64,000 nucleotides of DNA from Candidatus Scybalocola faecavium (GTDB lineage: Bacteria; Bacillota; Clostridia; Lachnospirales; Lachnospiraceae), in assembly GCA_018713145.1 (NCBI GenBank), contig DVFP01000019.1, positions 181,857 to 245,856 of the forward strand, read 5' to 3'. The number at the start of each line of letters is the position of its first letter. The stretch's first letter is position 1. The notes below the pieces were generated by a model. It was given only the letters and a program-made list of their open reading frames with translations, made no database searches and was not told where the DNA came from. Below, in pieces: positions 43,433 through 62,004 of the stretch. The position numbers and the translations under genes were made by a program.

Positions 43433-43460
43433 TTGCATTTCCCACACAGCGTGCTATAAT
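43433..43460 (+). promoter_or_regulatory. Putative sigma-A promoter of folT
   Basis: TTGCAT, 16-nt spacer, TATAAT. Confidence 0.6.
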
Positions 43461-43469
43461 AGTCAAAAA

Positions 43470-43612
43470 GCAGAGTAGGATCCTGCGCGTTTACCTTTAG
43501 GGTATCCAGTGCCTGGCGAACGGGGAGTTGTCGCCGGGACGAACAGGAAGTCTTTTGCAAAAAATTTGAGCAAAAGCTTTCCGGCGGTGCCGGATCCGCA
43601 TCCCGTTGCTAC
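43470..43612 (+). ncRNA. THF (folate) riboswitch, folT type
   Basis: GAGTAGG..GCGTTTA, GGGGAGTTGTCGCCGGGACGAAC, CGGTGCCGGATCCGCATCCCG conserved blocks immediately upstream of folT. Confidence 0.8.
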
Positions 43613-43683: not shown

Positions 43684-44259
43684 ATGACCAAAACTGTACA
43701 AAAGATTACTATTTTGGGCATGTTGGTTGCCGCTCAGGTGATTGCAGGGCGGTTTATTTCCATTTCCCTGCCTATTGTCACCATCGGCTTTGTCTTTCTG
43801 CCTGTGGCTGTTACAGGCATCCTTTTCGGTCCCCTTTGGGGCGGGATCGCAGCATTTCTCGGCGATCTTATTACAGCCCTGCTTGGTCCTTACGGATACT
43901 TTCTGCCCATGGGCCTGTCTGCATTTTTAACCGGGGCCATCTATGGTATTTTCCTTCACCGAAAACCGGCCGGCATCTGGCGGATCCTTGCGTGTGTACT
44001 CACGGAAAGTATCCTGATCAGTGTATTTTTACAAACATTCTGGCTGACCCTTCTCACCGGAAAAGCTTATCTTGTGCTGCTCCCCGCAAGAATCATCCAA
44101 AACCTTATTACTATTCCTGTCAGCGTCATCTGCATACGGCTTGTGGCTTACCGTGTGGTCCGTTTTATGCCCAAGGACTTCCGAATCCCTCTGCCTGAAA
44201 AAAACGATTCTTTCCAGGCTTTGTTCCACCGGCTTAAAGCCACCAGGAAAAACCGTTAG
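43684..44259 (+). CDS. folT: Folate ECF transporter substrate-specific component
   Basis: ECF S-component-like TM pattern (FLPVAVTGILFGPLWGGIAAFLGDLI, GPYGYFLPMGLSAFLTGAIYGIFL) downstream of a THF-riboswitch-like leader. Confidence 0.88.
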   Translation: MTKTVQKITILGMLVAAQVIAGRFISISLPIVTIGFVFLPVAVTGILFGPLWGGIAAFLGDLITALLGPYGYFLPMGLSAFLTGAIYGIFLHRKPAGIWRILACVLTESILISVFLQTFWLTLLTGKAYLVLLPARIIQNLITIPVSVICIRLVAYRVVRFMPKDFRIPLPEKNDSFQALFHRLKATRKNR

Positions 44260-44274
44260 AAAGGCGGCAGACCG

Positions 44275-45486
44275 ATGGCATTAGAAGATTTTCGCCGGGC
44301 ATTTGCCCAAACCACACAAAAAGGCATCTTTTTTGACAATGCTTCCATGGGGCCGGTCATACCGGATGTTACCCGGGCCATGACCCACTGTATGGAACTG
44401 CGCCAGTCCATGCCTATGAAATACTATAAATATGCCCAGGAGCTTTTTCCCGCCTGCCGGACACGGCTGGCTGCTATCATCGGCGCCGAGCCTCAGGACA
44501 TTGCTTTTACGGAAAATGTAGCCTACGGCATTAACTGTGCCGCCGGAGCCATTCCATTCCAGCCTGGGGATAATATGATCCTATGCGACCGGGAATTTGC
44601 TTCAAACGTTTACCCATGGATGCTTTTAGAACGGACCAAAGGCGTTCAGGTACGGATGGTTCCTTCAGGGCTGCCCCGGGACCAGGAAGCAGGGGCGCCC
44701 GGTCCCGGAGTACCGGGCAGCGGCGGCCTTACCCTTGCTCTTTTAGAACAATATGCCGATGAACATACCCGGGCTGTGGCCCTAAGCAGCGTGGAATTTT
44801 CCGACGGCTATGCCGCTGATCTTCAAGCTATTGGCCAATGGTGCCATGAACGTGGGATTTTCCTTGTTGTGGATGGGGCCCAATCTTTAGGGGTTATGCC
44901 AATGGATGTAAAAAAATATCACATTGACTTTCTCGCCGGCCTGTCCTCAAAATGGCTCCTTGGACCATTTTCCACAGGATTTTTATATGTGCGCCGGGAA
45001 CGGATCTCTCAGCTCATCCCGCCTTTTGCAGGGGCAGACAGTGTGAAAGGGGATGTAGATTCCCTAAGCTACAGACTGGATTTTAAAGAGGATGCTTCCC
45101 GTTTTGAAACCGGGCTGCCTAATGCTCCCGGCATTGCCGGATTAAATGCATCCCTAAAATTTATGGAAGAGATCGGGCCGGAAAAAATTTATCAGGAAGC
45201 CTGGAAGGTCAGCAAAACCCTGATCCAGGTATTGAAAGATTTAAACTTTCACCTGGCGCCCTGCGCCATGTCAGAAAAGACCCGGTCGCCGATCGTCTCT
45301 TTTTACGCGGGAAATGACCCGATCCAGTATAATCAGGCCACCAGTGATCTTTACCGGTATCTTCGTGAAATGAACGTGGCCTGCTCACTGCGGTGCGGCT
45401 ATATCCGCATGGGCATCCATGGCTATAATACAGAAGAAGAGGTTTATAAAACTGCCGAAATTTTAAAAAAAAGTCAGTGGATTTGA
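44275..45486 (+). CDS. Aminotransferase class V-fold PLP enzyme (NifS/Csd-like)
   Basis: FFDNASMGPV, FLVVDGAQSLGVMPMDVKKYHIDFLAGLSSKWLLGPFSTGFLYV (PLP Lys). Confidence 0.92.
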   Translation: MALEDFRRAFAQTTQKGIFFDNASMGPVIPDVTRAMTHCMELRQSMPMKYYKYAQELFPACRTRLAAIIGAEPQDIAFTENVAYGINCAAGAIPFQPGDNMILCDREFASNVYPWMLLERTKGVQVRMVPSGLPRDQEAGAPGPGVPGSGGLTLALLEQYADEHTRAVALSSVEFSDGYAADLQAIGQWCHERGIFLVVDGAQSLGVMPMDVKKYHIDFLAGLSSKWLLGPFSTGFLYVRRERISQLIPPFAGADSVKGDVDSLSYRLDFKEDASRFETGLPNAPGIAGLNASLKFMEEIGPEKIYQEAWKVSKTLIQVLKDLNFHLAPCAMSEKTRSPIVSFYAGNDPIQYNQATSDLYRYLREMNVACSLRCGYIRMGIHGYNTEEEVYKTAEILKKSQWI

Positions 45487-45508
45487 TCCTGAGCCGTATA
45501 GAAAGAAA

Positions 45509-45554
45509 ATAAAAATCCATACTTATCATTGAGGTGATAGGTATGGATTTTTAT
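45509..45554 (+). promoter_or_regulatory. 20-bp hairpin enclosing RBS and start codon of the downstream small ORF
   Basis: ATAAAAATCCATACTTATCA / TTGAGG / TGATAGGTATGGATTTTTAT, one G.U pair, no mismatches otherwise. Confidence 0.85.
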
Positions 45555-45728
45555 AATGATAATTATTTTATTCCTTTAGGCATGGCTATGGCCATGATGG
45601 ACGACGCCCTGGATTATGACAAGATCCGGAACATGACAGAAGCTCAAAGGGAAGATCTTTTATACCGGGCCAAAGACCAGGGGGATATGGAAAAGATCCA
45701 AATGATCTTATCCGACGAAAAATCGTAA
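45543..45728 (+). CDS. Small hypothetical protein
   Basis: 61-aa ORF MDFYNDNYFIPLGMAMAMMDDALDYDKIRNMTEAQREDLLYRAKDQGDMEKIQMILSDEKS with GAGGTGAT RBS. Confidence 0.65.
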   Translation: MDFYNDNYFIPLGMAMAMMDDALDYDKIRNMTEAQREDLLYRAKDQGDMEKIQMILSDEKS

Positions 45729-45740
45729 TCGTTCACCCGT

Positions 45741-45788
45741 TTTAAGCACATGCTGCTGTTCATGGCCAAGCCGCAGCATGTGCTTAAA
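45741..45788. terminator. 16-bp perfect inverted repeat between convergent genes
   Basis: TTTAAGCACATGCTGC ... GCAGCATGTGCTTAAA; no T-tract on either side. Confidence 0.5.
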
Positions 45789-56670: not shown

Positions 56671-56700
56671 CAAAAAAGAGTTCCGCTAGGGAACTCCTTT
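56671..56700 (-). terminator. Terminator of the TPP riboswitch
   Basis: Minus strand AAAGGAGTTCCCTAGCGGAACTCTTTTTT. Confidence 0.85.
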
Positions 56701-56711
56701 GTTTTGTCTGT

Positions 56712-56796
56712 GTCATCCCTACGTTGGCATTATCCAAATCAGGTTTTGGGTCGAAGCTGCTTGCTTCCTCTCAGCCGGCCGTACCAGCTCCCCGTT
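56712..56796 (-). ncRNA. TPP riboswitch
   Basis: Minus strand GGGGAGCTGGTACGGCCGGCTGAGAGGAAGC...GACCCAAAACCTGATTTGGATAATGCCAACGTAGGGATGA. Confidence 0.93.
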
Positions 56797-56862
56797 TTTT
56801 TCCAGTTATAGGATTATTATACTTCCCTCATATGGATTTTTCAATATATTTTTATGCTTTCA

Positions 56863-61759: not shown

Positions 61760-61876
61760 AAGCCATGCCAGCTCAGGCTTCGCCTTCGCTGTGGCTTGCG
61801 CCACATACATTCATGTAATCCTGACAACTGGTGCGCAAGCTCCCCGTCTGTCGGATTACATGATTGTGCATGGCTT
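61760..61876. repeat. 117-bp structured repeat element, copy 1
   Basis: Terminal inverted repeat AAGCCATGC...GCATGGCTT; second copy follows after 11 bp. Confidence 0.9.
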
Positions 61877-61887
61877 CTCTATTAATT

Positions 61888-62004
61888 AAGCCATGCCAGC
61901 TCAGGCTTCGCCTTCGCTGTGGCTTGCGCCACATACATTCATGTAATCCCGACAACTGGTGCGCAAGCTCCCCATCTGTCGGATTACATGATTGTGCATG
62001 GCTT
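61888..62004. repeat. 117-bp structured repeat element, copy 2
   Basis: Same element, differing at 2 positions by eye; terminal inverted repeat extends to AATTAAGCCATGC/GCATGGCTTAATT. Confidence 0.9.

Follow-up and report, generated by a model that had tools for sequence, protein, structure and literature searches.

A start-region hairpin with a predicted forespore-type promoter in its left arm may protect a small spore-linked gene from read-through translation in Candidatus Scybalocola faecavium

The stretch of DNA analysed here, 64,000 nt from Candidatus Scybalocola faecavium (Lachnospiraceae; contig DVFP01000019.1), is referred to as the window. It contains a THF riboswitch followed by folT and an aminotransferase gene, and then a co-directional small gene whose ATG lies 56 nt beyond the end of the aminotransferase gene (Table 1). 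A candidate promoter, TTGCAT-N16-TATAAT, was located by eye upstream of the riboswitch at 43433-43460. We compared four members of the genus, namely the window (L001) and the loci L002, L003 and L004; two of the three other members are Candidatus Scybalocola faecigallinarum and Catenibacillus scindens. In all four, the aminotransferase is the upstream neighbour of the small gene. Terminator calling between the two genes in L001-L003 found no terminator besides a hairpin that covers the start region of the small gene. Since no obvious terminator stands ahead of the small gene, RNA polymerase could run on into it, and since no other terminator separates the two genes we assume read-through, which is likely to come from the folT-aminotransferase operon in growing cells. 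Elsewhere in the window we observe a TPP riboswitch at 56699-56804 on the minus strand, and an inverted-repeat unit at 61800-61874 that recurs with the same arms at 61928-62002, a distance of 128 bp.

Table 1. Features of the locus, in window coordinates.
Feature	Position	Strand	Basis
THF riboswitch aptamer, head of upstream operon	43469-43610	+	Rfam RF01831, 62.6 bits, E 8.9e-12
folT, folate ECF transporter S component	43684-44259	+	TIGR04518, E 3e-34, above cut-off
Class-V aminotransferase (cysteine desulfurase-like), likely source of read-through transcription	44275-45486	+	PF00266, E 2.8e-47
-35 element GTATA, putative forespore (sigma-F/G type) promoter	45496-45500	+	G[TCA]ATA at same spacing in four species
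Hairpin left arm	45509-45528	+	Inverted-repeat search, RNA folding, genus comparison
-10 element CATACT	45518-45523	+	Within hairpin left arm; four-species alignment
Approximate predicted 5' end of the small gene's own mRNA	45528-45532	+	Inferred, ~5-7 nt 3' of -10 box
Shine-Dalgarno GAGGTGAT	45531-45538	+	Sequence; half loop, half right arm
Hairpin right arm	45535-45554	+	Holds part of SD, start codon, codons 2-4
61-aa ORF, spore-linked small protein of unnamed family	45543-45728	+	Homologues, SASP co-occurrence
Perfect 16-bp inverted repeat 3' of ORF, possible transcription-unit end	45741-45788	.	No U-tract on either side

Homologues of 61, 47 and 37% identity lie 3' of the same aminotransferase in each of the three other genus members with their start codons aligned, which marks the 61-aa ORF as a real gene. 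An initial contig scan with the single 61-aa protein sequence gave no match; a profile of 20 members gave matches in 93 of 397 Lachnospiraceae genomes, and the protein family is also present in several other families of the class. Its members share the motifs IP.G..MALA ... M(T/S)E.EKEE ... SKEEM (window 45543-45728, loci L002-L172). The family is tied to sporulation, since SASP genes occur in 92 of the 93 family-positive Lachnospiraceae genomes versus 168 of the 304 others (Fisher p = 7e-19). Among relatives, Catenibacillus decagia forms endospores and C. scindens has not been observed to do so (PMC11170127). No model of Pfam or NCBIfam covers the 61-aa family, and an identity as an alpha/beta-type SASP (PF00269) was rejected, the protein having no Pfam family at all. 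Four of the 20 family members gave weak OmdA matches (E about 0.003). AlphaFold predicts a helical protein, at a modest pLDDT of 70; comparison of the predicted fold with the PDB returned no match, and neither did a phage search.

An initial sequence-only reading had described a 20-bp hairpin that contains both the ribosome-binding site and the start codon of the 61-aa ORF, and our analysis bears out this geometry. The arms are 6 nt apart and 95% complementary, the sole deviation being a G-U pair, and the hairpin begins 22 nt beyond the aminotransferase gene, as first noted, because the stop codon of the latter ends at 45486. The SD is split between the loop and the right arm, and the ATG is fully paired. 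The SD is conserved as GAGGTGA in L002 and L003. Upon folding, the stem extends to 21 bp by one extra U-G pair, leaving a loop of 4 nt. RNA spanning 45480-45600 has a folding energy of -37 kcal/mol compared to a shuffle mean of -22 (z = -4.2; 0 of 200 shuffles equally stable), and none of 5000 dinucleotide shuffles formed 21 gapless pairs across the start region, the longest stem among them having 13. At the homologous sites, the 12 pairs of L002 were matched by 1 of 3000 shuffles and the 14 pairs of L003 by 3 of 3000; the stem of L004, with 6 pairs, is ordinary (1052 of 3000). The stems of the window, L002 and L003 thus greatly exceed the chance level, and we count this in favor of a role in insulating the small gene.

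Conservation of the pairing in homologues, which had been proposed as a check, was found within the genus; across the wider protein family it is not the rule. Three of the four genus members retain the pairing, in part through compensatory changes. In the alignment of the window, L002 and L003, 35 of 36 cells of the inner 12 pairs are intact and two inner pairs are altered on both strands (A-U to G-C; A-U to U-A or U-G); when the partners are shifted by 1-3 columns as a control, 33-47% pair. Covariation taken alone is weak, being equaled by 57 of 500 and 25 of 500 shuffles in a control that is itself weak because it holds only three sequences. This counts against insulation, as do the small size of the genus sample, four species in all, and the absence of the hairpin from L004. 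The intergenic stretch of L004 is longer (125 nt) and has a G-C-rich 12-bp hairpin, so that L004 may have swapped one insulator for another; this is only suggestive, because that hairpin is called terminator-like on the minus strand only. We also considered a hairpin shared by the entire family and rejected it, as the start-region pairing p-values are near uniform over 94 members with few loci excepted (4 at p <= 0.01).

The left arm of the hairpin also carries a putative promoter element. In an alignment of upstream regions, G[TCA]ATA-N17-CATNCT precedes the gene at identical spacing in all four genus members, with G[T/C/A/C]ATA as the -35 variants and CATACT, CATACT, CATGCT and CATTCT as the -10 boxes, 25-27 nt 5' of the start codon. 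We take this motif to be a form of the forespore sigma-F/G promoter. The pairing of a -35 with a -10 at fixed spacing in four species is accompanied by enrichment across the family. With sites picked by CATNNT alone, [GTA][ACT]ATA lies 17 or 18 nt 5' of it in 23 of 44 sites, and the other offsets have 0-4. Of the strict promoter matches, 13 fall in the bin from 20 to 29 nt 5' of the start; the number expected over the last 100 nt is 0.54, and the reverse strand has 2 altogether. GTATA-N18-CATGAT precedes sigG in each of the four genus genomes, and the consensus elements of C. difficile and B. subtilis are very similar (PMC3789822). In the genus, CATNCT is followed by T or G at a position where sigma-G prefers A, which counts against insulation of a forespore gene. 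Upstream regions of SASP genes gave a mixed sigma-G calibration, with -10-like CATAATA or GATAATA present and the starts further away, and were for these reasons little used. One SASP-gene leader (L160) has the inverted repeat CAGACATAAATATGTCTG, with a close variant in L161.

We then computed the cost of opening positions -13 to +9 around the start codon in a read-through RNA and in a promoter-initiated RNA. At 37 C this cost is 21.5 versus 4.8 kcal/mol in the window, 14.3 versus 3.8 in L002 and 18.2 versus 3.3 in L003, and there is hardly any difference in L004, which is without the hairpin (9.1 versus 8.5). The long RNA of the window thus has a stable hairpin of 21 bp that occludes both the SD and the AUG. 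A thermosensor had been suggested as one way of gating translation; the opening cost of the read-through RNA falls from 25.1 to 21.5, 19.2 and 15.8 kcal/mol at 25, 37, 45 and 55 C, so that opening the start region remains costly even at the two highest temperatures, and the hairpin does not have the marginal stability of an RNA thermometer that opens at physiological temperature. Across the family, the accessibility difference is not significantly larger in members with a co-directional upstream neighbor (Mann-Whitney p = 0.32), which counts against insulation.

In our view the hairpin is best explained as protecting a forespore gene from read-through translation, and we regard this as fairly probable. 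Besides the length of the stem, we count in its favor the promoter motif at fixed spacing, the accessibility difference, the retained inner pairs, the sporulation link of the protein, and the YtvI-like loci and precedents described below; that read-through is assumed from the missing terminator counts against it. In growing cells, RNA polymerase would run on from the THF-riboswitch-folT-aminotransferase operon into the small gene, and the long read-through RNA, having both arms, would fold and make the small gene's SD and AUG inaccessible. In sporulating cells, RNA polymerase with sigma-F or sigma-G would start at the promoter that has its -10 box in the left arm. Because of this position of the -10 box, the gene's own mRNA is expected to begin past the left arm; it would begin in the loop, without most of the left arm, with a leader of ~11-15 nt and a free SD, and would be translated. 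The hairpin, its conservation in three species and the conserved promoter motif are read directly from the sequences, and the accessibility difference is computed; we infer that the promoter is used, where its RNA starts, that transcription reads through and that translation is blocked. The strong gating of translation first proposed is therefore plausible on the read-through RNA only, as the gene's own mRNA is predicted to escape it. An mRNA start inside the left arm had been named as an outcome that would speak against gating; such a start is predicted for the own mRNA, and it changes the mechanism without abolishing gating. Control by an sRNA or antisense RNA, also suggested at first, is not supported.

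The main alternative is that the hairpin mainly serves the folT-aminotransferase operon as an intrinsic terminator, with the Asp-Phe-Tyr codons as its U-tract and the occlusion of the ribosome-binding site as a by-product. As in intrinsic terminators, a stem is combined with a T-rich sequence in two of the three species, the stem ending in or being followed by TTTTTAT in the window and L003; the L003 hairpin (14 pairs, 5 of them G-C) is called terminator-like, and no other terminator was found in this interval in L001-L003. However, L002 retains the stem and has GGATATATAC in place of a U-tract, and is not called. In the window, which is not called either, the TTTTTAT tail falls within the stem itself. 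The stem is G-C-poor, the T-rich stretch is coding, and in the window, L002 and L003 alike the right arm covers the SD and AUG, features which set the hairpin apart from intrinsic terminators. We judge a mainly terminating role unlikely, though termination may coexist with occlusion of the ribosome-binding site.

Three further explanations are less likely than termination. The palindrome could be an operator, bound as DNA across the -10 box by a dimeric regulator of forespore or vegetative type, and covariation would also be expected of a DNA palindrome that overlaps the box as this one does. Its 20-bp arms with a 6-nt center are nevertheless longer than those of usual operators, the arm sequence varies while pairing is kept (CATAC/GTATG to CATGC/GCATG; TTA/TAG to TTT/AAA), and unrelated genes have the same layout with different outer arms, making an operator very improbable. 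Still less probable is a functionless complementarity made up of promoter and start-codon constraints plus chance. The sigma-F/G -10 sequence CATAC is naturally antisense to GT-ATG, with which it pairs here, and most family members lack a strong hairpin; against this, shuffles never reach the 20-21 pairs of the window stem, and the core pairs still form in three species despite substitutions. Least likely of all is that the gene's own mRNA is controlled by a thermometer or by a switch that an sRNA opens. Such control would account for an SD and AUG within a stem, but the stem is too stable for growth temperature (19 kcal/mol at 45 C) and the own mRNA is predicted to be without the left arm.

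Returning to protection from read-through translation, we searched for the same arrangement at other loci. The pattern CATACT..AGGTG..GTATG had 15 matches in the same 397 genomes versus about 20 in a backward control; there is thus no excess, which counts against insulation. Several matches are individually convincing, with the same layout at sporulation genes. Two YtvI-like genes (TIGR02872, below cut-off) have a forespore-type -10 CATACT in the left arm and the SD and ATG in the right arm. At L185 (ATG at 1503, minus strand), the hairpin is CATACTATC-AAAAG-GTGATAGTATG, the opening cost is 20.2 versus 3.9 kcal/mol, and the stop codon of the upstream gene overlaps the -35; at L181 (ATG at 1523), the cost is 15.9 versus 0.9 kcal/mol. 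We also note a 48-aa protein (...NSVTQKVK.ENQNQ.HN.R.EA....RQ) behind CATACT..GAGGTG..GTATG at L177, L180 and L184 (ATG at 1524-1525), where the spacing between promoter and start is the same. It is possibly another spore protein, and the two copies tested had no match in Pfam or NCBIfam. It is conceivable, although doubtful, that these cases reflect a recurrent sporulation design in Clostridia, in which the -10 CATAC complements a GT-ATG ~25 nt away to form the core of an insulating hairpin, and that different spore genes (the 61-aa family, YtvI-like genes, the 48-aa protein) have independently built on this core to silence read-through translation.

If the proposed mechanism is correct, the locus would be a case in gut Clostridia of a developmental protein being kept off during growth without a terminator, in a way that is rarely noted: the developmental promoter would be built into an arm of a hairpin that is present only in the read-through RNA. 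The analysis also connects an uncharacterised family of small proteins with sporulation and provides a simple sequence signature for finding further such genes.

A hairpin that hides the ribosome-binding site in read-through RNA and has the gene's own promoter in its 5' arm is of a kind already known, and we predict that this locus is a further instance. In B. subtilis, a large hairpin of 20+ bp in the spoIIGA-sigE read-through RNA has been proposed to block translation of sigG (PMC5942855, its refs 9, 52). That hairpin cannot form in RNA from the forespore promoter of sigG itself, and the same is predicted here. In contrast to sigG, the gene at our locus encodes an unnamed 61-aa spore-linked protein, the upstream unit is a folate-uptake operon with a THF riboswitch at its head, and the start codon has its pairing partner in the -10 box itself. 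For sigG of the window's own genome (L039), we observe opening costs of 15.9 kcal/mol in the long RNA versus 8.0 in the promoter RNA, and of 12.3 versus 6.0 at L041; sigG at L038 and L040 has little or no such difference. The leader of B. subtilis sigG also has a small hairpin that likewise occludes the ribosome-binding site of a sporulation gene (PMC5942855); however, it has 5 bp, lies in the own mRNA of sigG and dampens expression 2-4-fold, whereas the own mRNA of the small gene would lack the left arm. In phage T4, RNA structure hides the ribosome-binding sites of e, soc, 49 and I-TevI in long early transcripts (PMC3014915, PMC2988022). For e and I-TevI, a late promoter is reported to lie in the 5' strand, and late RNAs are without that strand and are translated; a reduction of about 100-fold has been reported for e (PMC3014915, PMC2988022). 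The T4 promoters depend on the phage late sigma gp55 and the mechanism was demonstrated experimentally, whereas at our locus a sporulation sigma factor would take this part and the same logic is predicted.
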